Positions 15,707-36,077 of a DNA stretch of 64,000 nucleotides are shown here, piece by piece. The notes beneath the pieces are model-generated. The model had not been told where the DNA came from. It was given only the letters and a program-made list of their open reading frames with translations, and searched no databases. Each line of letters opens with the position of its first letter. Within the stretch, counting starts at the first letter, position 1. The stretch is from Tistrella mobilis. GTDB lineage: Bacteria; Pseudomonadota; Alphaproteobacteria; Tistrellales; Tistrellaceae. The stretch lies in the NCBI RefSeq assembly GCF_041468085.1, contig NZ_CP121017.1, positions 3,843,501 through 3,907,500 of the forward strand, read 5' to 3'. Made by a program: the position numbers and the translations under genes.

Positions 15707-16822
15707 ATGACCGACCAGATTTCCGATGCCCGCCTGTTCCTGCCGGTGACGCTGGGCTCGCTGACCCTCGCCAATCGCATCGCCATGGCACCGCTGACCC
15801 GCTCGCGCGCCGGCGCCGACGGCGTGCCCTCGCCGCTTGCCGCCACCTATTACGCCCAGCGCGCCTCGGCCGGCCTGCTGATCACCGAGGCAACCAATAT
15901 CAGCGCCGAGGGCCGCGGCTATGCCTGGACCCCGGGCATCTTCACGCCCGGGCAGGTGAGCGGCTGGAAGGCCGTCACCGATGCGGTTCATGCCCGCGGC
16001 GGCCGGATCTTCATGCAGCTCTGGCATACCGGCCGGATCTCGCACCCCAGCCTGCAACCGGGCGGCGTTCCGCCGGTGGCGCCCTCGGCCATACGCCCCG
16101 AAGGCCAGGCCTTCACCGAAGCCGGCTTCGTGCCCTTCGAAACCCCGCGCGCGCTCTCTGCCGACGAAATGCCGCGGCTGATCGAGGATTATCGCAAGGC
16201 GGCCGAGAATGCCAAAGCCGCCGGGCTCGACGGTGTCGAGATCCACGGCGCCAACGGCTATCTGCTGGAACAGTTCCTGCGGGATGCCACCAACACCCGC
16301 ACCGACGACTGGGGCGGCAGCATCGAGAACCGCGCCCGGCTGCTGCTGGCGGCAACCGATGCCGCGATCTCGGTGTTCGGCGCCGACCGGGTAGGCGTGC
16401 GGCTCTCGCCGGTGACGCCGGCCAACGATGCCGGCCAGGATTCCGATCCCGCCGCGCTCTACGGTTACGTCGCCGCAGAACTCGGCCGGCGCGGCATCGC
16501 CTTCATTCATGTGATCGAAGGCGCGACCGGCGGCCCGCGCGACAACCAGCCCTTCGACTATGCCGCCCTGCGCAAGGCCTTCGGCCGCCAGGGCTGGATC
16601 GTGAACAACGGCTATGATCGCGAAGCCGCGATCGCCGCCGTCGATGAAGGCCGGGCCGACATGGTCGCCTTCGGCCGGCCGTTCATCTCCAACCCCGATC
16701 TTGTCGACCGGCTGCGCCGCAATGCGCCGCTGGCGCCGCTCGATCGCGACACGCTCTATGGCGGCGGCGCGAAGGGTTATGTCGACTATCCCACGCTTGA
16801 TGGTCGGTTCGCCGCCGCGTGA
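15707..16822 (+). CDS. NADH:flavin oxidoreductase / old yellow enzyme (NemA-like)
   Basis: FMN-dependent ene-reductase of 371 residues. A TIM barrel starts at LFLPVTLGSLTLANRIAMAPLTRSRA; the FMN and substrate signatures are IFMQLWHTGRISHPSLQPGG, GVEIHGANGYLLEQFLRDATN with TRTDDWGGSIENRARLL, and MVAFGRPFISNPDLV. Such enzymes reduce activated alkenes, nitro compounds or maleimides with NADPH or NADH. The ATG at 15707 matches the family start; the nearest purine-rich site (GAGG at 15691) is somewhat far. It appears monocistronic between a palindromic operator candidate and the hairpin at 16854-16897. Confidence 0.93.
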   Translation: MTDQISDARLFLPVTLGSLTLANRIAMAPLTRSRAGADGVPSPLAATYYAQRASAGLLITEATNISAEGRGYAWTPGIFTPGQVSGWKAVTDAVHARGGRIFMQLWHTGRISHPSLQPGGVPPVAPSAIRPEGQAFTEAGFVPFETPRALSADEMPRLIEDYRKAAENAKAAGLDGVEIHGANGYLLEQFLRDATNTRTDDWGGSIENRARLLLAATDAAISVFGADRVGVRLSPVTPANDAGQDSDPAALYGYVAAELGRRGIAFIHVIEGATGGPRDNQPFDYAALRKAFGRQGWIVNNGYDREAAIAAVDEGRADMVAFGRPFISNPDLVDRLRRNAPLAPLDRDTLYGGGAKGYVDYPTLDGRFAAA

Positions 16823-17129
16823 CCTGAGACATCCCTCTGAAGACGTCTCTCAGACGGGCCGGGTGCCGCCTGCAATTGCAGGCGGCACCCGGCCCGTTCG
16901 CATGTCGATGACCGCTGGACGTCCCCCTTGATGGACATGGGTTTCCGCCCGGTGGACGGCAGTGGAAATCTGCCAGGGCCACGGCTTGCGGGAATTGTGC
17001 GGCCGCTCCGGGGCTGGCATGCTGCCCGGCGCGCCGGCCCCCGCAATGACGACCCCCGTGGTGACGACCATTGTAACGACCCGGGAGGGGCCCGGATGGC
17101 GCAACGACCACCAGGGAGGCAAGGAACCC
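16823..17129. other. 307-base intergenic region between OYE and aldehyde dehydrogenase genes
   Basis: Apart from the 44-base palindrome near its left end, no gene, repeat or clear promoter is visible. The right end holds the ribosome-binding site AAGGAA (17121-17126) of the aldehyde dehydrogenase. Confidence 0.6.
16854..16897. terminator. 44-base perfect palindrome, likely terminator hairpin
   Basis: The sequence from 16854 to 16897 is perfectly self-complementary about the centre TGCAATTGCA, giving up to 20 bp of stem with a minimal loop. It starts 31 bases after the OYE stop and is followed by TTCG instead of a T run. Termination is the simplest role. Confidence 0.7.
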
Positions 17130-18608
17130 ATGAGCGGCGCGAACGAGATCAAGCGGAGCTGGCAGCACTATATCGACGGCCGCTTCGTCGACAGCCTGGA
17201 CGGCACCCGCATCCCGGTGGTCAACCCGGCGACCGGTGAGGTCATCGCCGACATCGCCTGCGCAAAGGCCGCCGATGTCGACATGGCGGTGGCCGCCGCG
17301 CGCAAGGCCTTCAACGCCCGCCTGCTGCAGAACATGAAGCCGGTGGAGCGGTCGCGGATGATGCACCGCATCGCCCGGATCCTGCTGGAGCGGACCGAGG
17401 AGATCGCGCTGGTCGAAACGCTCGACAACGGCAAGCGGCTGTCGGCTGCCCGTGGCGACGTCGCCGCCGCCGCGCGCTATTTCGAATATTACGCCGGCAT
17501 GGCCGACAAGCTGGAAGGCAAGTCGATCCCGCTCGGCCCCGACTATATCGACTACACCGTGCACGCGCCCTTCGGCGTGTCGGCGCAGATCGTGCCGTGG
17601 AACTTCCCGCTCCAGATCGGTGCCCGCTCGATCGCCTGCGCGCTCGCCACCTGCAACACCGTGGTGATGAAGACCCCGGAGCTTTCGGCCCTGTCGCTGG
17701 CGGCACTCGCCCAGGCGGTCCACGATGCCGGCGTGCCCGCCGGTGTCGTCAACATCCTGACCGGTTTCGGCCACGAGGCGGGCGCCGCCCTCGCCGGCCA
17801 TGGCGATATCGACCATCTGGTCTTCACCGGCTCGGTGCAGACCGGCAGCCGGATCCTCCATGCCCTGGCCGACCGGGTCGTGCCGGCGGTGATGGAGCTG
17901 GGCGGCAAGTCGGCCGGCGTGGTGTTCAGGGACGCCGATATCGATCAGGTCATCACCTCGACCCGCGGCGGCATTTTCACCAATGCGGGCCAGGTCTGCT
18001 CGGCCTCGTCCAGGCTGGTGGTGGAACGGCCGGTTTATGACCAGGTGGTGGAGCGCATGGCCGCCGCCGCCTCGGCGCTGAAGATCGGCCCGGGGATCGA
18101 GGATGCCGAGCTGACCCCGGTGATTTCGGACGGCCAGCTCGACAAGATTGAGGCCATGTGCCTGCGCGCGGTCCAGGCCGGTGCCACCGCGGCGGCCGGC
18201 GGCCGCCGGGTCGACCGGCCGGGCTATTTCATGGCGCCGACCGTCATCGCCGGCACCACGCCCGACTCGGAAATCGCGCAGCACGAGGTCTTCGGTCCCG
18301 TGTTGACCATCCTGCCCTTCGACGATGCAGAAGAAGCACTCGCCATCGCGAACGGCACCGATTACGGTCTCTGTGCGGGTGTCTACACCCGCGATCTGGC
18401 CCGGGCGCATCTGGTGGCGGACCGCCTGATCGCCGGTCAGGTCTTCGTGAACGAGTGGTTCGCCGGCGGCATCGAAACGCCGTTCGGCGGCATGAAGCGG
18501 TCGGGTTATGGCCGGGAGAAGGGCGTCGAAGCCCTGCTCGGCTATGTCCAGACCAAGAATGTCGCGATCCGGCTGACCGCCGGCGCGACCGGCCGTCCGG
18601 GCGCCTGA
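17130..18608 (+). CDS. NAD(P)-dependent aldehyde dehydrogenase
   Basis: Aldehyde dehydrogenase of 492 residues, oxidising an aldehyde to the acid. Landmarks are the N-terminal YIDGRFVDSLDGTRIPVVNPATGE, QIVPWNFPLQIGARSIACALA, the coenzyme loop FTGSVQTGSRI, the general-base Glu in VMELGGKSAGVVF, and the nucleophilic Cys in NAGQVCSASSRLVVE. The C-terminal GGMKRSGYGREKG is typical of betaine-, vanillin- or semialdehyde-type enzymes. The ATG at 17130 has AAGGAA just upstream. It is followed by a RidA and a ThDP enzyme in the same direction. The physiological aldehyde is not apparent. Confidence 0.94.
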   Translation: MSGANEIKRSWQHYIDGRFVDSLDGTRIPVVNPATGEVIADIACAKAADVDMAVAAARKAFNARLLQNMKPVERSRMMHRIARILLERTEEIALVETLDNGKRLSAARGDVAAAARYFEYYAGMADKLEGKSIPLGPDYIDYTVHAPFGVSAQIVPWNFPLQIGARSIACALATCNTVVMKTPELSALSLAALAQAVHDAGVPAGVVNILTGFGHEAGAALAGHGDIDHLVFTGSVQTGSRILHALADRVVPAVMELGGKSAGVVFRDADIDQVITSTRGGIFTNAGQVCSASSRLVVERPVYDQVVERMAAAASALKIGPGIEDAELTPVISDGQLDKIEAMCLRAVQAGATAAAGGRRVDRPGYFMAPTVIAGTTPDSEIAQHEVFGPVLTILPFDDAEEALAIANGTDYGLCAGVYTRDLARAHLVADRLIAGQVFVNEWFAGGIETPFGGMKRSGYGREKGVEALLGYVQTKNVAIRLTAGATGRPGA

Positions 18609-23551: not shown

Positions 23552-24370
23552 ATGGATGAACACGCCCTCGTTCCGGCTGAGGATGAGCTGTCAGGGCCCG
23601 CCGCCCGTGCCGGTGGGCGGGCCGGTGCGGTACCGGGGCGGATTGTGCTGGTGACCGGGGCAAGCAAGGGGATCGGCCGGCGCACGGCCGCCCATTTTCT
23701 CGACCGGGGTGATCTGGTGCATGGCTGTGCCCGCAGCCCCTCGCCCATTGAGCATCCCGCCTATGTCCATCACCAGCTGGACGTTGCCGATGAAGGGGCC
23801 GTGAAGGCGATGATGACGACCATCCGCCGCACCCATGGCCGCATCGACGTGCTGATCAACGCCGCCGGCGAAGCCTCGATGAACCACGCGCTGCTGACCC
23901 CGGCCGAAACGCTGGAGACCCTGCTGCGGACCAATGTGATCGGCAGCTTCGTCTGCGCCCGGGAGGCCGCGCGGCTGATGCGCCCCGATGCGCGCCGCCG
24001 GGATCAGGATCCGCCGGACATCCCCGCGGCCGGCCGCATCGTCAACCTGACCAGCGTCGCCGTCCCCCTGAAGCTCGCCGGTGCGGCGGCCTATGCAGCC
24101 GCCAAGGCTGCGGTCGAAAGCCTGACCCAGACACTGGCGCGGGAACTCGCCCCCATGGGCATCACGGTCAATGCCGTCGGCCCGGGGCCGGTGCGCACCC
24201 GCATGACCCGGACCGTGCCGTCCGAGACCATCGACCGGCTGCTCGCCGCCCAGACCGTGTCGCGGCTGGCCACCGCCGACGAGGTGGTGCGGGTGATCGA
24301 TTTTCTGGCCGACCCGGCGGCCGCGATGGTCACCGGCCAGATCATCTATCTGGGAGGGGTGTCCCGATGA
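23552..24370 (+). CDS. Short-chain dehydrogenase/reductase (FabG-like)
   Basis: SDR of 272 residues. After a 28-residue leader the NAD(P) motif GASKGIG lies at 36-42, NAAG in the middle, Ser168 in NLTSVAV, and YxxxK as Y181-AAA-K185. The C-terminus AMVTGQIIYLGGVSR is typical of FabG-type 3-oxoacyl reductases. Within this cluster it could set the oxidation state of a carrier- or CoA-bound acyl group or make an aromatic/hydroxy acid. It is the first gene of a set joined by ATGA overlaps, so stoichiometric co-expression with the ligase is expected. Confidence 0.9.
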   Translation: MDEHALVPAEDELSGPAARAGGRAGAVPGRIVLVTGASKGIGRRTAAHFLDRGDLVHGCARSPSPIEHPAYVHHQLDVADEGAVKAMMTTIRRTHGRIDVLINAAGEASMNHALLTPAETLETLLRTNVIGSFVCAREAARLMRPDARRRDQDPPDIPAAGRIVNLTSVAVPLKLAGAAAYAAAKAAVESLTQTLARELAPMGITVNAVGPGPVRTRMTRTVPSETIDRLLAAQTVSRLATADEVVRVIDFLADPAAAMVTGQIIYLGGVSR

Positions 24371-25743
24371 CCGAAAGCCTGCTCGACCGGATCGCCGGGC
24401 TCGGCGATGCGGTCGCCCTCATCGACGATGCGACCGGCATCGAGACCTCTTTCGCAGCGCTCGCCGGGCAGGCCCGGGGCGCGACGGATCTGTTGCGGAC
24501 CGCTGGAATTTCCACCGGCGATGTGGTCAAGCTGGACGGCGAGGCCGGCGCCCGGACGCTCGCCCTGCTGCTGGCCCTGCAGGCGCTGGGCGCGGTCGTG
24601 GCGCTCGACACCTCGACCGTGACAGCGGAACGCGTCGACAAGGCCGTCCTTGCCCGCGCGGTCTGGCAGCTGCGCCCCGAGACCGGCCATCGGCCGGAAG
24701 CGATCGCCCCCGACGGTGACGAGGCAGCGCTGGTCGCGCAACTCCGCGAGGCAGGCAGGGCCGGGCTGATCCTGTTCAGCAGCGGCACCACCGGCAGGCC
24801 CAAGGCGATGCTGCACGACCTGGACCGGCTGAGCGCGAGCTATCTGGGCGGCGCCCCCCGTGCCAAGCCCCTGCGCCTGCTGCTCTTTCTGATGTTCGAC
24901 CATATCGGTGGCATCAACACGATCTTTTCGAGCCTCGCCCAGGGAACCACCCTGGTACTGCCGGCGGAGCGCACGCCGATGGCGGTGGCCGGCGCCATCG
25001 CCCGGCATCGGGTCCAGGTGCTGCCCGCATCGCCCACCTTTCTCAATCTGATGCTCATGAGCGGCGCGATCGACGCCCACGACCTTTCGACCCTGCGGAT
25101 GATCACCTACGGCACCGAACCCATGCCCGAAGGGCTGCTCGGCCTGCTGCGCAGCCGCCTGCCCCGCGCCCGGCTGCTCCAGACCTTCGGCACCTCTGAA
25201 ACCGGCATCGTCTCCACCGTCAGCCGCGCCTCCACCAGCCTCGCCATGCGCTTCGACGACGAGGCGGTCGAACATCGCATCGTCGACGGCGAACTCTGGC
25301 TGCGCAGCCGGCGGCGGATCGTCGGCTATCTCAACCACCCGATGGATGCCTTCACCGATGACGGCTGGTTCCGGACCGGCGATCTGGTCGAGGAAACGCC
25401 CGACGGCTTCCTGACGGTGAAGGGACGCGCCAAGGAGATCATCAATGTCGGCGGCGAGAAGGTATTCCCGGCCGAGGTCGAGGGCGTGCTGATGGCCTCG
25501 GGCCTGGTCGCCGACTGCAAGGTGTTCGGCCAGCCCAACGCGATCACCGGTCAGGCGGTGATGGCCGAGATCGTGCCGGCCCCCGATGCGGTGCCCGCCG
25601 ATCCCGCCGCGCTGGTCAAGGCGGTGAAGGCCCATGCCCGGGGGCGGCTCGACCCGTTCAAGGTACCGGTCCGGGTGAAGATCGTGGCCGATATCCCCTA
25701 TTCGGCCCGGTTCAAGAAACTCATTTCGCGGGAGGCATCATGA
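24367..25743 (+). CDS. AMP-forming acyl/aryl ligase (class I adenylate-forming enzyme)
   Basis: ANL-superfamily enzyme of 458 residues, shorter than typical acyl-CoA synthetases because the N-terminal region is compact. The P-loop LFSSGTTGRPKAM is at 136-148; later motifs are FGTSETG, GWFRTGDLVEE and KGRAKEIINVGGEKVFPAEVE. The A10 Lys is in PYSARFKKLI at the C-terminus. With a free carrier protein and NRPS downstream, the likely job is to adenylate an acid and load it on the carrier; CoA ligation is the alternative. The A4 region FDHIGGIN does not identify the acid. ATGA overlaps join it to genes on both sides. Confidence 0.88.
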   Translation: MTESLLDRIAGLGDAVALIDDATGIETSFAALAGQARGATDLLRTAGISTGDVVKLDGEAGARTLALLLALQALGAVVALDTSTVTAERVDKAVLARAVWQLRPETGHRPEAIAPDGDEAALVAQLREAGRAGLILFSSGTTGRPKAMLHDLDRLSASYLGGAPRAKPLRLLLFLMFDHIGGINTIFSSLAQGTTLVLPAERTPMAVAGAIARHRVQVLPASPTFLNLMLMSGAIDAHDLSTLRMITYGTEPMPEGLLGLLRSRLPRARLLQTFGTSETGIVSTVSRASTSLAMRFDDEAVEHRIVDGELWLRSRRRIVGYLNHPMDAFTDDGWFRTGDLVEETPDGFLTVKGRAKEIINVGGEKVFPAEVEGVLMASGLVADCKVFGQPNAITGQAVMAEIVPAPDAVPADPAALVKAVKAHARGRLDPFKVPVRVKIVADIPYSARFKKLISREAS

Positions 25744-26447
25744 TGGATCTGGTCATCTTCGGGTCGGGCGGCTTCGCCCGCGAAGTCGCCGCCTATGCCG
25801 TCGATGCCGGCTTCACGCTCCGCGGCTTCCTCGACCTGTCCCGTACGGCCTGGGAAGAGCATGGCGCACCGGCCCCCGCCTGGCTGGGGCGGCCCGAGGA
25901 CTATCAGCCGGCGCCGGGCGAGGTGTTCGCGCTCGGCATGGCCGAGATCGCGGTGCGCGCCGAGATGATCGCCCGCTGGTTCGACGACGCCGGCTGGCCC
26001 GCCGCGACCATCATCCACCCCACCGCGACCGTCATGCCGGGCGCGGAGATCGGCCCGGGCTCGGTGCTCGGCCCCCGGGTGCATATCGGCGTCAACGCCC
26101 GGCCCGGCCCCTTCACCGTGATGAATTACGGCTGTTCCTTCGGCCATGACGGCGTCTCGGGCCGCAACAACGTGTTCTCGTCGGGCGTGCAGCTTGCGGG
26201 CTATGTCACGCTCGGCGCCAACAACTTCTTCGGGATTGCCGCCTCGGTTCAGCCGCGGCTGACGCTGGGCGACGGCAACCGCATCCAGGCGGGCGTGTCG
26301 GTCGCGGCCAATGTCTCGTCCGGTGCCTTCGTCTTCCGCAAGGACCAGCCAAAAACCGCCTTCCTGTTCGCTCCCCAGCCCGCAGCCCCCCAATCCGCCA
26401 CGCCCACCCCGTCGCCAACCCCGTCCATCGAGGTCACGACCCCATGA
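25740..26447 (+). CDS. Left-handed beta-helix acetyltransferase (PglD/NeuD-like)
   Basis: Protein of 235 residues. The N-terminal Rossmann-like part (LVIFGSGGFAREVAAYAVDAG) and the hexapeptide-repeat domain (IHPTATVMPGAEIGPGSVLGPRVHIG onward) match PglD-type sugar acetyltransferases. The catalytic His is in CSFGHDGVSG. The C-terminal Pro/Thr-rich tail (about 25 residues after FLFAPQP) is unusual. In PglD the acceptor is an amino-sugar nucleotide; here an amine or hydroxyl on a small metabolite is plausible. Starts at ATG 25740 within the ligase stop, with GGAGG upstream; a second ATG follows directly at 25743. Confidence 0.85.
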   Translation: MMDLVIFGSGGFAREVAAYAVDAGFTLRGFLDLSRTAWEEHGAPAPAWLGRPEDYQPAPGEVFALGMAEIAVRAEMIARWFDDAGWPAATIIHPTATVMPGAEIGPGSVLGPRVHIGVNARPGPFTVMNYGCSFGHDGVSGRNNVFSSGVQLAGYVTLGANNFFGIAASVQPRLTLGDGNRIQAGVSVAANVSSGAFVFRKDQPKTAFLFAPQPAAPQSATPTPSPTPSIEVTTP

Positions 26448-28168
26448 GCGATCCCGTGCTGATCATCGGCGCCGGCCCGGCCGGCTGCGTTGCCGCCCTC
26501 ACCCTGCGTCGCCGCGGCCGCGACGTCGTCCTGCTCGAACGCGCCACCGAACCCGCCTATAAGATCGGCGAGAGCCTGCTGCCCGGCACCCTGTCGCTGC
26601 TCGACCGGCTGGGGCTGATGGACCGGATCATGGAGCGCGGCTTCGTACGCAAGCCGTCGGCCACCTTCGTCTGGGGGCTGGGCCAGGCGCCCTGGACCTT
26701 CTCCTTCGCCACGCCGCGGCCCGAGCCCTGGATCTACGACCATGCGATCCAGGTCTACCGCCAGGAATTCGACGGGCTGCTGCTGGATGCCGCGCGCGAT
26801 GCCGGGGTGGATATCCGCATGGGGCATGCCGTCACCTCGGTCGATTACGACCATGGCGACGGCGTGCTGGTCCGCGCAAGGCGGGTGGCCGATGATGCCG
26901 AGATTGTGCTGCCCGGATCCTATGTGGTCGATGCCACCGGCCAGAACGGGCTGATCGCCCGCGAGCTGGGGCTTCGCCGGTATGATGAGTTCTATCGCTC
27001 GCTCGCGGTGTGGAACTACTACCCCTCGATCCGCAAATTCACCGGCGACCTGGACGGCACCACCTTCTCGATCACCTTCGAGAAGGGCTGGGTATGGATG
27101 ATCCCGCTCAAGGACGGCACCTATTCCGTGGGCGCGGTGGTCGATGTCGACAATGCCGCCGAGATCAACGCCCGCGGCCGGCAGGCCTTCCTGGAAGACT
27201 GCCTGCGCGCCGCCCCGGAAGTTGCGTCCATCGTCGACCTGGACGATCCCCGCGCCGAGGCCCGGATCATCCGCGAATGGTCGTATAATGCCGAACGCAT
27301 GTCGATGGGCCGGGCCTTCCTGGCCGGCGACAGTGCCTGCTTCACCGACCCGCTGTTCTCGCAGGGCGTGCATCTCGCCACCCAGTCCGGTGTCTATGCC
27401 GGGGCGGCGATCGACTTCCTGATCGACCATCCCGACCGGGCCGACGACGTCCATGCCTGGTATGATGCCGCCTATCGCGAAAGCTATTCGCAGTATCACG
27501 AGTTCCTGGCCTCGTTCTACAGCTATGCCTCGGAAGTGATGCCGGCATCGAGCTTCTGGTCGAAGCGTCGGGTGCAGGGGCTGGAAGACAAGCGCTTCTC
27601 GGACAAGACCTGGTTCGCCCGCCTGACCGGCCAGGCCGAAGAGGTGGACGAGGACGAACTGCTGCGCAAATTCGTCAACCGTTCCGGCAACATGATCAGC
27701 CTCGGCCAGCATCTGCGCACCGAACTCACCGACGATTTCACCGAGGAGGAACTCGCCGCCAAACGGGTGCAGTGGATCGGGGCGCTGACCCGCAATCTGA
27801 ACGCGATCAAGCGCTTCGAATGGACCGGGGGCGAGGTTGCGCTGGTGCCGACCTTCAAGGTCGACCCGATGGATTTCGGCCTGGTCGAGCGCCAGCTGGT
27901 CGCCGACGGGCGTGGCCGGCGGATGATGAAATACGCCATGACCGAAGCCCATCGTGACGTCCTGGCGGGGCTCTCGCACGAGACCGTCGGCTATCGCGAG
28001 CTGGTCAAGCGGCTGAAACACGCCGATGACGGCCCCGACCTGTCGTCGCAGATCGTGATCCGCCTGATCGAGGCCGGGATGCTGAAGGGTTATGACGGCG
28101 ACGACCAGCCGGTCGAGATCCAGCACCGGCTGCGCTTCGACGGCGTCGGCGCGGAATACGAGGTCTGA
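26444..28168 (+). CDS. Flavin-dependent halogenase (carrier-protein/phenol type)
   Basis: FADH2-dependent halogenase-like enzyme of 574 residues. GAGPAG (9-14) binds FAD and WVWMIP (216-221) is the WxWxIP motif separating halogenases from monooxygenases. Lys70 in GFVRKPSATFVWG aligns with the catalytic Lys that forms the haloamine, and GESLLPGTL is shared with CndH/PltA-type enzymes, which halogenate carrier-bound pyrrole or phenol groups. The C-terminal 200 residues form the extra helical domain. A flavin reductase is not encoded nearby. ATG 26444 overlaps the acetyltransferase stop. Proximity of ligase, carrier and NRPS supports a carrier-bound substrate; tryptophan in the nearby peptide cores is an alternative. 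Confidence 0.87.
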   Translation: MSDPVLIIGAGPAGCVAALTLRRRGRDVVLLERATEPAYKIGESLLPGTLSLLDRLGLMDRIMERGFVRKPSATFVWGLGQAPWTFSFATPRPEPWIYDHAIQVYRQEFDGLLLDAARDAGVDIRMGHAVTSVDYDHGDGVLVRARRVADDAEIVLPGSYVVDATGQNGLIARELGLRRYDEFYRSLAVWNYYPSIRKFTGDLDGTTFSITFEKGWVWMIPLKDGTYSVGAVVDVDNAAEINARGRQAFLEDCLRAAPEVASIVDLDDPRAEARIIREWSYNAERMSMGRAFLAGDSACFTDPLFSQGVHLATQSGVYAGAAIDFLIDHPDRADDVHAWYDAAYRESYSQYHEFLASFYSYASEVMPASSFWSKRRVQGLEDKRFSDKTWFARLTGQAEEVDEDELLRKFVNRSGNMISLGQHLRTELTDDFTEEELAAKRVQWIGALTRNLNAIKRFEWTGGEVALVPTFKVDPMDFGLVERQLVADGRGRRMMKYAMTEAHRDVLAGLSHETVGYRELVKRLKHADDGPDLSSQIVIRLIEAGMLKGYDGDDQPVEIQHRLRFDGVGAEYEV

Positions 28169-28188
28169 GCGTCGAGGCAGGAGATCCC

Positions 28189-28737
28189 ATGGTGACCCCA
28201 ACCGTTCTGATCGTGCCGGGGCTGGGTGGATCCGGCCCCGATCATTGGCAAAGCCTGTGGCTGGAAGAAAACCCCGCCTGGCGGCGGGTGGAACAGCGCG
28301 ACTGGGACCACCCGGTCGCGTCGGAATGGCTTGCAGCGCTGGACGAGGCGGTGGCGCTGGCACCCGGACCGGTGGTGCTGGTGGCGCACAGCCTGTCCTG
28401 CGCGCTGGTGGTGCGCTGGGCGGAAACCTCCGCCCGCGCCGGCCGGGTGAGGGGCGCCCTGCTCGTCTCTCCGGCCGATGTCGACAGCCCCGATCACACA
28501 CCGGAAGAGGCAAGGGTCTTCGCCCCGATGCCGACCCTGGTTCTGCCCTTCCGCACGCTGGTGGTGGCGAGCGACGACGACCCCTATGTCGCGCCCGAGC
28601 GGGCCGCCGGCTTCGCGGCCGCCTGGGGCGCCGATCTCACCATCATTCCCGGTGCCGGCCACATCAACGCCGATTCGGGCTTCGGCCATTGGCCGCTCGG
28701 CCAGGATCTGCTGAGAGAACTGACGGAGGACATCTGA
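28189..28737 (+). CDS. RBBP9/YdeN-family serine hydrolase
   Basis: Alpha/beta hydrolase of 182 residues. TVLIVPGLGGSGPDHWQSLW is the family start, the nucleophile is Ser68 in VAHSLSCAL, the acid is in VVASDDDPYV, and the His is in GAGHINADSGFG. RBBP9-type proteins are small esterase-like hydrolases with poorly known substrates. Lying 20 bases after the halogenase and ahead of the NRPS, it could act as a proofreading or release hydrolase (inference). Confidence 0.88.
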   Translation: MVTPTVLIVPGLGGSGPDHWQSLWLEENPAWRRVEQRDWDHPVASEWLAALDEAVALAPGPVVLVAHSLSCALVVRWAETSARAGRVRGALLVSPADVDSPDHTPEEARVFAPMPTLVLPFRTLVVASDDDPYVAPERAAGFAAAWGADLTIIPGAGHINADSGFGHWPLGQDLLRELTEDI

Positions 28738-28830
28738 GCGGCCCCGCACATCAACATCCCTCCCCCCTGCCTGCAGCTCCCCCGCACATTCCCTCAACGG
28801 GCGCAGATGCCCCGTCCGGGAGGCAGCCAC

Positions 28831-31800
28831 ATGCTGCATCACCTCAATCTCGCCCAGCGCGACATATTCTTCGATCGCACGCTCAACCCCGACCGGCTGT
28901 ACCTGGTCGGGGGCGAGATGCAGGTGGACGGCGCCTTCGACGATGGGGTGGCGGCAGCGGCCTATCGGACGGTGATGGGCGACGTGGCGGCGATGCGGGC
29001 CCGGCTGGTGGTGCAGGATCATCAGCCGATGCTGGCGGTGGCACCACCGGACGACACCACCCCTGCCCCCTTCCGGCTGGAAGATTTCAGCGCCGGACCG
29101 GACCCCGCGATGAGCGTCGCCGCCCGGGCCGCCGCCCTCTGGGCCGAACCGATCCGACCCGAGGACGGCCGGGTCATGCACGACATGTGGGTCCTGAAGG
29201 CGGCGCAGGACCGGCGGACCATTCTGTTCCGCTGCCATCATCTGATCGCCGACGGCTGGGCAGGGCTTGCCCTTTTCGATCGGTTCCGCCGGGCCTATGA
29301 CGCCATCCTGACCGGCGGGATACCGGTACCGGAGCCGGCACCGCTGCCCGATCCTGCGGTCGAGCTTGCCTGGATCCAGGGGCCGAAAGCCGCAGAGGAC
29401 GGTGCCTTCTGGGCCCGTGAGCTGGCCGATCTGCCCGCCCGGGCCTTTCTGCGCCGCCCGCCCTTCGGACCGTCGCTCAAGGCCCGGATCACCCGCGACC
29501 GGGCGGCCTTTGCCCGGATCGAGGCGGTCGCCACCGCCGCCGGCGTTCCTCTGCCGGCCCTGCTGCTCACCCTGTTCGCGACCCTGGTCCACGAGTTGAC
29601 CGGCCGGGTGGCGATGATCGTCGCCACCCCGGTTCGCAACCGGATGACCGCGGCCGAACGCGCGGCCATCGCCCCCTTCGTCCGGCTGATGCCGCTTGGC
29701 CTGCAGATCGACCCGGCCGGACGGCTGGGCGAGGCCGCAGCCGCGGTTCAGGCGGCGATGCGTCGTGGCTTCCGCCATCAGCGCCTGCCCATGGGCGCGA
29801 TCGGCAAGGCGCTCGGCCGCAGACCCGGGGCCGGTGATGCCATGCTCGGCGATGTGCTGTTCTCCTTCGAGACCCGGCCGGCCACACAGGGCTTCGCCGG
29901 CTGCCGCACCCTGCTCCACCCGGTCAGTCACGAGGGCGACAAATACGCCCTCGCCCTCCATGTCCGCGATCTGGGGGGTGAGGGGCCGGTCGATTTCGAT
30001 CTGGCACTGGATGCCGCCCATTGGGGACCACTTGGGGCGGCGCCGGTGGTGGAGCGGCTGGGGCCGATGCTGGATGCTCTGGAACAGGCGACACCCGACA
30101 CACCGCTCGCGCGACTGATCCCGCCCATGCCTGCGGCCGAACGGGCCTTGATCGCGCGGGTGAACGATACCGCCCGACCATTGCCGGGCCGGGCCGGCGG
30201 CGCGGCGAGCGTGGTGGAGCTGATCCGCGAGACCGCGCGTCTCAGATCTGCCGAGCCCGCCCTGGTGACCGCAGCGGGCGAGGTCACGAGCTTCGCGGCC
30301 CTCGACCTCTGGTCCGACAGGGTCGCCCGGGTCCTCGTCGCGCTGGGCGCCGGCCCCGACCGGATCATCGGGGTGATGATCGACCGGCGGCCCGAAATGA
30401 TTGCCGCGGTTCTGGGGGTGCTCAAATCCGGTGCGGCCTTCCTGCCGCTCGATCCCGCCCTGCCGCCGGCGCGGCTGGCCGAGCTGGCGGCGGATGGCGG
30501 GGCGATGACCGTGATCACCTGCCGGGACTTCGCGACAATCGCGACGGGCCGGCCGCTGCTGGTGATGGATGATGCAGGCGCGCTCGACGCACCGGAGGTG
30601 GCGCTGCCGGCCCCGGCCCCCGACCATCTGGCCTATCTGCTCTACACCTCCGGCACCACCGGCCGGCCGAAGGGGGTAATGGTCGACCATGCCGCCCTGC
30701 TCAACCGGCTGGTCTGGCAGTGGCACGCACTTGGCCATCGACAGCACGAACCGATCCTGCACCGCACGACCGCAAGCTTCGACGTCTCGGTCTGGGAGAT
30801 GCTGATGCCGCCGGCCATGGGCGCGCCCATGGTGCTCTGCCCCGCGGTCACCGCCCATGATCCGCAGGCATTGGCCAGGCTGATCGAGGCGCGGGACATT
30901 GCCTGCCTGCATTTCGTGCCCGGCGCCCTGGATGCCATGCTGGCCGGTCTGCCCGCAGCCGATGACGAACGCCTGTCGCGGCTGCGGCTGATCGTGACCA
31001 GCGGCGAAGCCTTGCGGTCGGAAACCGTGCGCCGGGTCGCAGCCCGCTGGCCGGGTGTCCGGATCGTCAATCTCTACGGGCCGACCGAGGCCGCGATCGA
31101 CGTCGCCCGCCATGATGCCGATCCCGAAGAGACGGTGGTGCCGATCGGCCGGCCGGTCTGGAACACCCGGCTGCTGGTGGTCGACCCCGATACCCTGCGA
31201 CCGGTCGCGGTGGGTCGGCCGGGGGAGCTGGTGATCGGTGGCGTTCAGCTTGCCCGCGGCTATCTGGGCCGGCCGGACCTGTCGGCCGACCGTTTTCCCG
31301 AAGATCCGGCAAGCCCGGGGGCCCGACTCTACCGCACCGGTGACGAGGCTTTGCTGACGCCGGACGGGGTCTTCCTCTATCTGGGCCGGCTGGATGATCA
31401 GGTGAAGATCGATGGCGCGCGGGTGGAGCCGGGCGAGGTCGCAGCACGACTGGCCAGCCATCCCGCCGTACAGGAGGCGGCGGTCAGGGCCATCATCGGC
31501 CCCCGCGGCCCAAGGCTCGCCGGCTGGTATGTCGGCGAGACCGTCTCCGCGGCCGAGCTGCGGAGCTGGGCCGCCGGGCGCCTGCCGGGCTGGATGGTTC
31601 CGGCGGTGCTCACCCGCATGGATCACCTGCCCCGCCGCCCCAACGGCAAGCTCGATGCCGCCGCCCTGCCGGCGCCGGCCCTCGCCGAGGGGCCGGTCCG
31701 CACCGCCCCGGCCACCGCCCTTGAAGCCGCCATCGCCGGCGCCTTCGCCCGGGTGCTGGACGGGGTAGCGGTGGATGCGGCCACCGATTTCTTCCTGGCA

Positions 31801-32670
31801 GGCGGACATTCGCTGACCGCGCTCCGGCTCACCGGCGAGATCCGGGCGGCGACCGGGCTTGAGACAGATCTGAAGCAGCTGTTCCTCAACCCGACGCCGC
31901 GGCTGCTGGCCGCGGCCCTGGATCAGGCCCGCATCACCGCCGGTGATCACGAGGATGACGGGCCGCTGCCGCTGTTCCGGCCGGCGACGGGGCGGACGGC
32001 ACCGGTCTTCCTGATCCCGCCGGTCGCCGGAGAGCCGGCCATCTTCCTGGATCTTGCAGCACGGCTCGGCCACACCGCCTGGGGGCTGCGCTTCCCGGCG
32101 CATCCGGCGGCGGGCCTGCCGGAATTCGCCCGCCATCTTGCCCGGACGGTGCTGGAGATCGCCCCCCGGGGACCGTGGTATCTGATCGGCTATTCGCTCG
32201 GCGGCATGGCTGGCTTCGATGCTGCGCGGCTGATCGAGGCGGAGACCGGCGGCCGGGTGGACCTGGTGCTGCTCGACGTCTCGGCCGCACCGGTCCCCCT
32301 GCATCCCGACGCGGTCGCGGCAAAATTCGAGCGTGAATTCGCCCGTATCGCGGCGGGCGGCAACGACGCCATGGGCCGCCTCGCCGCCGGTCTCGGCCGG
32401 CCGGCGATCGCCCGGCTGAAGGCCCGGGTGCTGCGCAACGCCCGGGCGACGACCGGATGGCAGGCGCGCGGCGCCATCCGCGGCGACATCACCATGATCA
32501 CCGCCCTGCGTGATCCGGCCGAGCGCCGCCCCGAATGCTGGGCCGCCCATACCACCGGCCGCTTCCGGCTGATCGGACTGGATGCCGGCCATTTCGACCT
32601 GCTGTCGGACCGGATGATACCGGATCTGCTCCGGGCGCTGTCGCCAATGCCCGAACCGGTCCCCGCCTGA
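28831..32670 (+). CDS. NRPS module C-A-T-TE, serine-type A domain
   Basis: Nonribosomal peptide synthetase of 1279 residues, the size and architecture of EntF. Condensation domain: HHLIADG at 136-142. Adenylation domain: YTSGTTGRPKG at 605-615 and Lys940 in PNGKLD. The pocket residues D651, V652, W655, H694, V722, S724, L748, I756, D757, K940 read DVWHVSLIDK, one change from the serine code DVWHLSLIDK. Carrier: Ser994 in GGHS. Thioesterase: Ser1122 in GYSLGG, Asp1149, His1254. ATG 28831 has GGGAGG seven bases upstream; the frame opens at 28807. The C domain probably takes an acyl group from the free carrier protein at 32713 and joins it to serine. Confidence 0.95.
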   Translation: MLHHLNLAQRDIFFDRTLNPDRLYLVGGEMQVDGAFDDGVAAAAYRTVMGDVAAMRARLVVQDHQPMLAVAPPDDTTPAPFRLEDFSAGPDPAMSVAARAAALWAEPIRPEDGRVMHDMWVLKAAQDRRTILFRCHHLIADGWAGLALFDRFRRAYDAILTGGIPVPEPAPLPDPAVELAWIQGPKAAEDGAFWARELADLPARAFLRRPPFGPSLKARITRDRAAFARIEAVATAAGVPLPALLLTLFATLVHELTGRVAMIVATPVRNRMTAAERAAIAPFVRLMPLGLQIDPAGRLGEAAAAVQAAMRRGFRHQRLPMGAIGKALGRRPGAGDAMLGDVLFSFETRPATQGFAGCRTLLHPVSHEGDKYALALHVRDLGGEGPVDFDLALDAAHWGPLGAAPVVERLGPMLDALEQATPDTPLARLIPPMPAAERALIARVNDTARPLPGRAGGAASVVELIRETARLRSAEPALVTAAGEVTSFAALDLWSDRVARVLVALGAGPDRIIGVMIDRRPEMIAAVLGVLKSGAAFLPLDPALPPARLAELAADGGAMTVITCRDFATIATGRPLLVMDDAGALDAPEVALPAPAPDHLAYLLYTSGTTGRPKGVMVDHAALLNRLVWQWHALGHRQHEPILHRTTASFDVSVWEMLMPPAMGAPMVLCPAVTAHDPQALARLIEARDIACLHFVPGALDAMLAGLPAADDERLSRLRLIVTSGEALRSETVRRVAARWPGVRIVNLYGPTEAAIDVARHDADPEETVVPIGRPVWNTRLLVVDPDTLRPVAVGRPGELVIGGVQLARGYLGRPDLSADRFPEDPASPGARLYRTGDEALLTPDGVFLYLGRLDDQVKIDGARVEPGEVAARLASHPAVQEAAVRAIIGPRGPRLAGWYVGETVSAAELRSWAAGRLPGWMVPAVLTRMDHLPRRPNGKLDAAALPAPALAEGPVRTAPATALEAAIAGAFARVLDGVAVDAATDFFLAGGHSLTALRLTGEIRAATGLETDLKQLFLNPTPRLLAAALDQARITAGDHEDDGPLPLFRPATGRTAPVFLIPPVAGEPAIFLDLAARLGHTAWGLRFPAHPAAGLPEFARHLARTVLEIAPRGPWYLIGYSLGGMAGFDAARLIEAETGGRVDLVLLDVSAAPVPLHPDAVAAKFEREFARIAAGGNDAMGRLAAGLGRPAIARLKARVLRNARATTGWQARGAIRGDITMITALRDPAERRPECWAAHTTGRFRLIGLDAGHFDLLSDRMIPDLLRALSPMPEPVPA

Positions 32671-32712
32671 CCCTTCGCCACAGACCCCGCCCAAGACAGA
32701 GGAGGCCCGAAG

Positions 32713-33048
32713 ATGGCCGATGAAGCAGCAATCCGGGACATGATCCTGGCCACCCTCGCCGAGGTGAACGAGGAACGCGAGGAACCCTTCGACCTTGCCC
32801 CTGGTCCCGCGCTCATCCTCTATGGCAGCGGCGGCGTGTTCGACAGCATGGGGTTGGTCAATTTTCTGACCACGGTCGAGGAAAAGCTCGACGACGATTT
32901 CGGTGTCACCGTGTCGCTGACCTCCGAGAAGGCGGTGTCGCGCAAGGTGAGCCCGTTTGCGAGCGTCGAGGCGCTCACCGCCTTCGTGATGGAAGAAATT
33001 TCCGAGGCCGACGGTGCCGACACCCCGCTGCAGGCGGCCGCCTCTTGA
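32713..33048 (+). CDS. Free-standing acyl/aryl carrier protein
   Basis: Carrier protein of 111 residues. The phosphopantetheine site is Ser45 in LYGSGGVFDSMGLVNFL; helices on both sides and EALTAFVMEEI near the C-terminus fit the ACP fold. It is longer than FabD-type ACPs and resembles stand-alone carriers of specialised pathways. Strong GGAGG at 32701-32705. Placed 42 bases after the NRPS, it is the natural partner for the ligase (loading), the halogenase (tailoring) and the NRPS C domain (donor). The stop overlaps the TTG start of the next gene. Confidence 0.88.
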   Translation: MADEAAIRDMILATLAEVNEEREEPFDLAPGPALILYGSGGVFDSMGLVNFLTTVEEKLDDDFGVTVSLTSEKAVSRKVSPFASVEALTAFVMEEISEADGADTPLQAAAS

Positions 33049-34768: not shown

Positions 34769-35047
34769 ATGGTGCCCACCTCTCACCTGCTGATGCTGAC
34801 CTCAGATCCGACCGTCGCCTGGGCACTTGCCTCTGCCATCTCTGCCGAAGAGGCCGCCAAGGTGCTGGGCGATGCCGGTGAAGCCAAGGGCTTCAAGTTC
34901 GACTGGCGCTCGCTGATCCCCCGGCTCAAGCGGCGGTCGGAAGACACCGAGATCGACGATGCGGCGCTGGAAGGCGTGGCCGGCGGCGTCGCGGTGAACA
35001 GCGCCTATATGCCGCTGGGTGGCGGCTGGATGATTTCCGGCAACTGA
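34769..35047 (+). CDS. Nif11-like leader precursor peptide 1
   Basis: Protein of 92 residues with a long leader (1-73) ending in DDAALEGVAGG and a 19-residue core-like tail, VAVNSAYMPLGGGWMISGN. The leader shows LTSDPTVAWAL, ISAEEAAKVLGDAGEAKGFKF and the acidic stretch before the double glycine, the pattern of Nif11/NHLP RiPP leaders. GGAG lies 9 bases upstream of the ATG. A paralogue with an identically long leader follows 18 bases later. No Cys, Ser/Thr-rich or Lys-containing core is present, so lanthipeptide or acyl-lysine chemistry is unlikely; Tyr, Met and Trp are the reactive side chains. Function as a RiPP precursor is inferred. Confidence 0.7.
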   Translation: MVPTSHLLMLTSDPTVAWALASAISAEEAAKVLGDAGEAKGFKFDWRSLIPRLKRRSEDTEIDDAALEGVAGGVAVNSAYMPLGGGWMISGN

Positions 35048-35065
35048 GCGGCGGAGCCCGACGAT

Positions 35066-35335
35066 ATGATCTCGACCTCGCAGCTGATGGCACTTGCCAG
35101 CGACCCGGCCACCGCCGCGGCGCTGATCGCCGCCATGACCCCGGAAGAGGCCGCCCGCATCCTGGGGGAAACCGGTGATGCCCGGGGCTTCAGGTTCGAC
35201 TGGCGTGCCCTGATCCCGCGGCTGAAGCGCCGGACGGATGATGCCGCACTCGACGACGCCGCCCTGGAAGGCGTCGCCGGCGGGGCTGCCTCGGCAGCAA
35301 TGATCCTGCCGGGCGGCTGGACGTTCGGCGGTTGA
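35066..35335 (+). CDS. Nif11-like leader precursor peptide 2
   Basis: Paralogue of the preceding peptide, 89 residues. Its first 73 residues align to peptide 1 without gaps, 46 identical by eye, including FDWR-LIPRLKRR and DDAALEGVAGG. The tail is AASAAMILPGGWTFGG. Cores share SA, Met, Leu and GGW, but differ in length by three residues. Strong leader conservation with core drift is the signature of RiPP precursors. GGAG at 35053 precedes the ATG. The next gene, a DUF6445 oxygenase-like protein, starts 73 bases after the stop and may modify the core. Confidence 0.7.
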   Translation: MISTSQLMALASDPATAAALIAAMTPEEAARILGETGDARGFRFDWRALIPRLKRRTDDAALDDAALEGVAGGAASAAMILPGGWTFGG

Positions 35336-35408
35336 GCGAGCGGGTTGAAGCCGGTTCGCGGGCATGGTGGAATGCGCGCGAACCGGAGGCTTCAGCGGAG
35401 CGCGTGCC

Positions 35409-36077
35409 ATGCATCAGTCGATGATCGTCGTCGACGACTTCTACGAGAACCCGCTCGAAGTGCGGGCACAGGCGCTGAAGCTCGATTATCCGCATCTGTC
35501 GGGGCCCGAGATTTATTATCCGGGCCGCAATTCGAAACAGTTCATGCTGCCGCCCGACAGCGATCGCATGTTCAGCTACATCGTCCGCGAGCCGGTGATC
35601 GGCAATCGCGAGATGGCACATGGCAAATGCCGGCTGTCCTTCGCCTCGGACACCCGCGCGGGCGTGGTCCATATCGATCCGGGCTGCGCCTGGGCCGGGA
35701 TTGTGTTCCTCAGCCTTGATGAACACGCACAGGGCGGCACTGAATTCTTCCGCCACAAAGAGAGCGGTACCGATCGTGCGCCCCTGACCGATCAGGAGGC
35801 GCAGGAGAAATTCGGCCTTCCTACCCGTGAAGCCGTCCTGGACACGGTGTTGAAGCGCGATGGCGGCGACCGGTCCAAATGGGACCAGATCACGGTCCTG
35901 CCAATGAAGTTCAACCGGCTGATCCTGTTCCGTCCCTGGCTGTGGCACACCAGCGGCGTGGATTTCGGCGACGCCCCCGAAAACGGCCGGCTTGTCCAGA
36001 TCCTGTTCTTCAAGCCCGGCCCGACGCCGGCCCCGTCAACCCGCCCGACCGTGATGCCGCCGTCACGGCAACGCTGA
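35409..36077 (+). CDS. DUF6445 protein, putative 2-oxoglutarate/Fe(II) oxygenase
   Basis: Protein of 222 residues starting MHQSMIVVDDFYENPLEVR, typical of DUF6445. A double-stranded beta-helix iron site is visible: His88 and Asp90 in VVHIDP, His180 in PWLWHTSG, and Arg194 in NGRLVQILFF as the likely 2-oxoglutarate anchor. Relatives are often encoded with tryptophan halogenases, and a halogenase lies 8 kb upstream here. GGAG precedes ATG 35409 by 8 bases; an in-frame start at 35364 was rejected. Its 3' end overlaps a convergent gene by 68 bases. A hydroxylase acting on the peptide cores or on the NRPS product is inferred. Confidence 0.75.
   Translation: MHQSMIVVDDFYENPLEVRAQALKLDYPHLSGPEIYYPGRNSKQFMLPPDSDRMFSYIVREPVIGNREMAHGKCRLSFASDTRAGVVHIDPGCAWAGIVFLSLDEHAQGGTEFFRHKESGTDRAPLTDQEAQEKFGLPTREAVLDTVLKRDGGDRSKWDQITVLPMKFNRLILFRPWLWHTSGVDFGDAPENGRLVQILFFKPGPTPAPSTRPTVMPPSRQR

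Follow-up and report, generated by a model that had tools for sequence, protein, structure and literature searches.

Among described systems, the locus analysed here is closest to the N11P precursor peptides (TIGR03798). These Nif11-derived precursors (Haft et al. 2010, PMC2887384) have a leader of about 70 residues, with a motif 2 given as ELSDEELEAVAGG, and a short tail after Gly-Gly; they come as paralogues, with an NHLM exporter in the genome. The two peptides studied here, A and B, resemble N11P in each of these respects, and the last 13 residues of their leaders, ALDDAALEGVAGG in B and EIDDAALEGVAGG in A, are close to that motif in sequence. They differ from N11P in scoring below the family cut-off, in having tails without Cys, and in their neighbourhood, where no LanM, cyclodehydratase or exporter adjoins and a DUF6445 oxygenase is found instead. 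For the cleavage site, PMC6363468 describes recognition by the C39 peptidase LahT, with Gly-Gly directly before the cut and hydrophobic residues at -4, -7 and -12, and quotes a ComA consensus of Leu-12, Glu-8 and Leu-7.

The window, which is the whole stretch of 64,000 nucleotides of Tistrella mobilis DNA that was analysed, lies on the largest contig of its genome (G000), whose nearest relatives in the comparison are two further Tistrella species (G001 and G002). It carries the following features at this locus.

34769..35047, + strand: gene A, a putative Nif11-like double-glycine precursor of 92 aa; leader residues 1-73, ending in EIDDAALEGVAGG; tail VAVNSAYMPLGGGWMISGN
35066..35335, + strand: gene B, a putative Nif11-like double-glycine precursor of 89 aa; leader residues 1-73, ending in ALDDAALEGVAGG; tail AASAAMILPGGWTFGG
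35336..35408, + strand: gap between B and DUF6445, 73 bases, with a strong conserved hairpin at about 35344-35396
35409..36077, + strand: DUF6445 protein (PF20043), 222 aa, predicted 2OG-Fe(II) oxygenase fold; H88, D90, H180, R194

Genes A and B are separated by 18 bases. Their leaders align without gaps over residues 1-73 with 46 of 73 positions identical and both end in ALEGVAGG, which confirms the sequence-only reading of two adjacent small genes with a common leader. Comparison of the whole proteins in register gave 49 identities, against 6 to 15 in six other registers (-3 to +3). The leader codons (n = 73) differ 21, 9 and 32 times at first, second and third positions, respectively, a pattern that points to protein-coding paralogues and disfavours chance. 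Similarity between A and B falls off past the GG. Their tails, 19 residues in A and 16 in B, both lack Cys and Lys, as had been claimed. The further claim that the tails diverge holds for sequence and length, but they are not unrelated: when aligned they have A-x-M-x-L-x-G-G-W in common. Unlike as the two tails are, each is nearly invariant across three Tistrella species and is not hypervariable: no species pair differs by more than one residue in either tail, and silent changes number 1 to 5 in B and none in A. An AlphaFold model of B was poor (pLDDT 59.1) and uninformative.

The family model TIGR03798 scored A at 13.4 bits (E 0.071) and B at 16.5 bits (E 0.0076), both under its cut-off of 32.3. 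Profile comparisons gave a clearer result. The A/B profile matched a set of 11 Nif11 leaders, taken from three further genomes of the Alphaproteobacteria, with an hhalign E of 1.7e-8 and a probability of 95%; these leaders were drawn from 13 family matches (11 over the cut-off) after two short proteins without Gly-Gly had been dropped, and 10 of the 11 used exceed the TIGR03798 cut-off. An unlinked Nif11-like Tistrella peptide, taken with its two orthologues, was matched with an E of 2.1e-8. For both comparisons the leader columns 1-60, without the GG region, beat 100 of 100 column shuffles, and because these comparisons were limited to columns 1-60 the shared GG motif could not drive the score. 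The probabilities for these columns alone were 39% and 70%, so that the N-terminal part taken by itself gives a weak signal that still exceeds chance. When 7,892 ORF fragments from 74 loci were searched with an HMM built on the 11 foreign leaders, seven came back at E<=1: six were the A and B copies of three genomes (E 2.8e-4 to 4.3e-3), and the seventh was the unlinked peptide (E 3e-7). As a yardstick, a LanM-adjacent precursor with a Nif11 leader in the window's own genome (L180:6380-6661) obtained 16.8 bits from TIGR03798, no better than B. This precursor is similar to A and B in its leader end (DDELDDQALDQVAGA) and score range, and differs from them in lying directly behind a LanM and in its Cys-rich tail, GSPWCMFTNGCYCFFTK, where the tails of A and B have no Cys. 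The sequence-only reading had proposed a search against Nif11/NHLP leader models; the formal TIGR03798 cut-off is missed by both peptides and the model itself lends weak support, but the Nif11-like character of the leaders is borne out by profile homology. On the profile-profile comparisons, the foreign-leader HMM and the yardstick, we class A and B as Nif11-type by homology, and consider them very probably a duplicated pair of Nif11-type (N11P-like) double-glycine precursors. The unlinked peptide (L003:1483-1770, minus strand, C4 about 4,561,500) stands alone in three Tistrella species and has the tail AGIDWISVAQGQIYGS; no maturase was recognised among the ORFs of the surrounding 3.2 kb.

Counted back from the end of Gly-Gly, both leaders have A-3, V-4 and L-7, with Ile at -12 in A and Leu in B. 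Both carry the residues that LahT would recognise, in keeping with the double-glycine ending noted in the sequence-only reading, whereas position -8 is Ala in both peptides against Glu-8 in the ComA consensus. Strong C39 domains number two per genome in each of three Tistrella genomes; those of the window's own genome (G000) lie about 1.7-1.8 Mb from A and B on the same replicon, in exporters at L116:9220-11448 and L115:7056-9197. The first NHLM set (L116:8048-17140, C4) scored 1042 bits with TIGR03796 (cut-off 853), 835 with TIGR03797 (cut-off 709) and 237 with TIGR03794 (cut-off 156). About 2.3 kb from it lies an NHLP precursor (16799-17140, minus strand; TIGR03793 67.3 bits, cut-off 50.9) whose tail ends in GGVTFTLGGG. 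The second set (L115:4201-11115, C4), for which two models were scored, reached 247.6 bits with TIGR03794 and 849.5 bits with TIGR03796, just below the cut-off of 853.3; next to it is a protein of 192 aa whose N-terminus is short and of the GG type. No exporter is adjacent to A and B and both NHLM sets are distant, so export would be in trans. We propose that the leader would be recognised by an NHLM-type C39 peptidase-ABC exporter encoded elsewhere, which would cut after VAGG and export the Gly/Trp-containing tails of 19 and 16 residues. That NHLM cleaves and exports A and B in trans is probable, and the description of a precursor pair that would be cut and exported in trans is, at the level of sequence, well supported.

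The HxD...H...R arrangement is the motif of 2OG-Fe(II) families of the PHD2/P4H/OGFOD1 type. The gene behind B scored 56.9 bits with Pfam PF20043 (cut-off 24). An in-frame ATG exists at 35364, but the stretch that can be aligned to relatives starts at 35409, and the starts of the relatives were chosen from their match to this start. The predicted metal and cosubstrate residues, H88, D90, H180 and R194, do not vary among 17 aligned sequences. The structure model (pLDDT 89.0) matched PIUC, OGFOD1, prolyl hydroxylases and natural-product oxygenases in the PDB with Z of 10.9 to 12.2 over 144-186 residues; Foldseek gave a best E of 8.3e-6, and most TM-scores, normalised by model length, were 0.4-0.54. 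Of the solved structures, PHD2/P4H/OGFOD1-type peptidyl hydroxylases rank near the top (Z 10.9 to 12.1) and share the motif, but their sequence identity to DUF6445 is 10-19% and their TM-scores are about 0.4 to 0.54. Small-molecule oxygenases are among the fold matches too, and the substrate is therefore not readable from the fold. The double-stranded beta-helix fold, the invariant residues and the 73-base distance on the same strand all agree with the putative 2OG-Fe(II) oxygenase that had been noted within 75 bases of the pair, and DUF6445 is very likely an active 2OG oxygenase. In a library of 5.39 million papers, most subscription papers being outside its scope, none names DUF6445, and no published function was found for it.

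The gap between B and DUF6445 folds at -43.8 kcal/mol (z -4.93), and none of 200 shuffles was as low. Of its 73 sites, 3, 2 and 1 have changed in the three species pairs, compared with 53, 54 and 10 of 223 third positions in DUF6445 (Fisher p = 5.9e-5, 9.2e-6 and 0.30); in the closest pair, G001-G002, the gap is thus no more conserved than the DUF6445 third positions. The gap ahead of A shows 20/113, 13/101 and 14/101 differences in three pairs, with indels. Each of the three Tistrella genomes has one full-length copy of the hairpin, and Rfam gave no match to the gap up to E 1. Three other explanations of the hairpin were tried and rejected. As a terminator it has no T tract, and no terminator-like site was found; as a dispersed repeat it has, beyond the three orthologous copies, partial matches with a best E of 0.009; and as coding sequence from the ATG at 35364, which is open in three species, two of three substitutions are residue-changing and similarity starts at 35409. 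Hairpins can act as dosage elements between precursor and enzyme genes. The conserved hairpin suits an A-B-DUF6445 operon with reduced read-through, in which DUF6445 would probably be on the A-B transcript at a lower level, across the hairpin, but it might just as well stabilise the A-B message at its 3' end. The literature search returned no paper on a stem-loop between lantibiotic genes.

Strand and order of A, B and DUF6445 are kept in all three Tistrella species. This conservation is within one genus and perhaps reflects one event, and with A and B in one genus only there is no independent co-occurrence with DUF6445. Among 385 genomes of the class, 10 outside Tistrella have a DUF6445 relative, nine with 40-60% identity and one with 31%; so do 19 of 397 further genomes sampled across the phylum and 48 of 250 from one order. 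One genome (G739) is in both the phylum and order samples, and another (G146) was already among the class matches. The sequence-only reading had proposed to survey the neighbourhoods of DUF6445 homologues for similar peptides, and had counted a lack of co-occurrence in other genomes as a refuting outcome. No Nif11-like leader was found at any of 61 scanned places outside Tistrella, which is such an outcome. Some of these places are incomplete genes or end early at a contig border; the flanks scanned are mostly 1.5 kb (wider for ten), and 30 of the 49 DUF6445 places matched in the order sample are covered. The best E of the HMM scans outside Tistrella was 0.42. At 10 DUF6445 loci, tblastn with A and B yielded short matches alone (E 0.22 or worse), and a regular expression for GG peptides in the flanks of 10 loci found nothing leader-like by eye. 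Neighbours were read with a simple composition-based gene caller that made few calls at low G+C, leaving several loci uninformative; where readable, as in eight of the 10 class genomes, they were peptide-unrelated in appearance.

One member of the family is an exception. A search of plasmid and phage collections detected the family on one plasmid and in 11 records of phages; the plasmid and one phage region were read for gene content. On the plasmid, NZ_CP136338.1 of Piscinibacter gummiphilus, the DUF6445 gene overlaps a TfuA gene in a YcaO/TfuA/MNIO cluster. Like that of Tistrella, this protein is an oxygenase of PF20043 and has HxD, H and R at matching alignment positions, but identity is 30-33%, no Nif11-like leader was found there, and other maturases adjoin. 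The cluster (L067:7122-15198) comprises a carbamoyltransferase-YcaO fusion ORF of 1,438 aa (the annotated start is shorter), TfuA, MNIO, DUF6445, GNAT and a 57-aa peptide. The phage matches are DUF6445-like proteins of cyanophage and marine virus records, one of them (L068:4001-4543) beside genes with the annotations FkbM methyltransferase, beta-mannosyltransferase and tail fibre.

Because the readable neighbours elsewhere, the Piscinibacter cluster excepted, look unrelated to peptides, the adjacency of DUF6445 in Tistrella could be incidental. This DUF6445 branch looks mainly like an orphan oxygenase, and a peptide association would be a local recruitment. A and B would then be unmodified double-glycine peptides, either similar to a two-peptide bacteriocin or acting as a signal, exported by NHLM, with DUF6445 as an unrelated orphan neighbour. 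Besides the class neighbours and the 61 places without a leader, this explanation draws on the resemblance of the locus to a two-peptide system, with its adjacent gene pair, conserved leaders and short Gly-containing tails, and on PMC2887384, which remarks that the ends of the leaders resemble their counterparts in unmodified class II bacteriocins. We nevertheless consider it rather unlikely, as the gap ahead of DUF6445 is conserved far above its flanks in two of three pairs and holds a strong hairpin found once per genome, gene order is kept in 3/3 species, and a distant DUF6445 sits among RiPP enzymes.

On balance we favour, with moderate confidence, the reading in which a Nif11-type pair would be exported by NHLM in trans, with DUF6445 downstream as its candidate local tailoring enzyme. 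For the single step in which DUF6445 acts on A and B our position is tentative, and leans slightly to the doubtful side. Among local genes DUF6445 would be the most likely tailoring enzyme of the A and B tails, and might, speculatively, hydroxylate Pro, Trp or another tail residue. A more specific version, in which A and B are matured by this lone hydroxylase with a dosage set by the hairpin and NHLM export in trans, and which would define a hydroxylation-only RiPP group, seems unlikely. The pair beside DUF6445 is a directly testable candidate substrate for a family without a found function. If the favoured reading is true, DUF6445 would be a peptide-tailoring oxygenase family, its first function, and Nif11-type peptides would be processed and exported by proteins encoded at scattered places in the genome. 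If it is false, an orphan Nif11-type pair is added to Tistrella, beside the LanM-Nif11 locus and the NHLP locus in the genome.

The neighbourhood of the pair has no LanM, YcaO or radical SAM maturase, as the sequence-only reading had stated, but such enzymes are encoded elsewhere. The window's genome and G001 each encode 2 LanM-type proteins and G002 encodes 1; YcaO proteins number 1 in each of the three Tistrella genomes, and SPASM proteins 2, 1 and 1 in the window's genome, G001 and G002. With these and two NHLM-type exporters in the genome, a minimal class does not follow from the neighbourhood; the proposed minimal, unusual RiPP class is not established, and the term is premature. One LanM of the window's genome lies in the region L180:3545-6661 (C4 about 3,002,500-3,005,700; TIGR03897 390 bits, cut-off 304), followed by the Cys-rich precursor with a Nif11 leader. 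The second is on replicon C2 (L181:4246-7269), with no Nif11-like peptide in the 12 kb covered.

A and B could be substrates of a maturase acting in trans, such as the LanM on C2, much as scattered Nif11 peptides are processed by ProcM, and it is consistent with this that one of the two LanM-type proteins has no Nif11-like peptide in the 12 kb around it and that YcaO and SPASM proteins are present as well. We consider this improbable. The tails have no Cys and could not form lanthionine, so that Ser and Thr dehydration alone would be possible, and G002 keeps A and B with one LanM, which in its start and length is like the precursor-paired LanM.

Searches for A and B themselves gave full-length strong matches in 3 Tistrella only, among 385 genomes of the class. 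Identities among the three are 98-99% for A, 97% for B and 92-95% for DUF6445. A scan of a species-level genome collection added one further A/B locus, in T. mobilis (285 pattern matches, 1 confirmed), and B had no match in the plasmid collection. The A1 profile also had weak matches (E 1.6e-4 to 0.006) in ten further genomes, within open frames 198 to 1,100 aa long; the match in G052 sits in a tandem Nif11 array. The peptides thus appear genus-specific as far as the searches reach. A structural or regulatory role for A and B, as small proteins with a fortuitous GG ending, would fit the conservation of whole proteins, tails included, in the genus and the missed TIGR03798 cut-off, but it is very improbable given that leader homology persists without the GG region, that A/B similarity falls after GG, and that the residues recognised by LahT are present.

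Between G000 and G001, third positions differ at 6/93 sites in A, 20/90 in B and 53/223 in DUF6445, and at 12.6-26.7% in six upstream genes. Gene A is low compared with the others pooled (p = 0.0015), which might reflect strong codon preference due to high expression, a hidden RNA element or a recent exchange. Elsewhere, the window holds a nonribosomal peptide cluster (23552-33048) with an AMP ligase, an SDR and a carrier-protein-like ORF, a CmlS-type FAD halogenase at 26444-28168, and an NRPS at 28807-32670 with condensation, AMP-binding, carrier and thioesterase domains.
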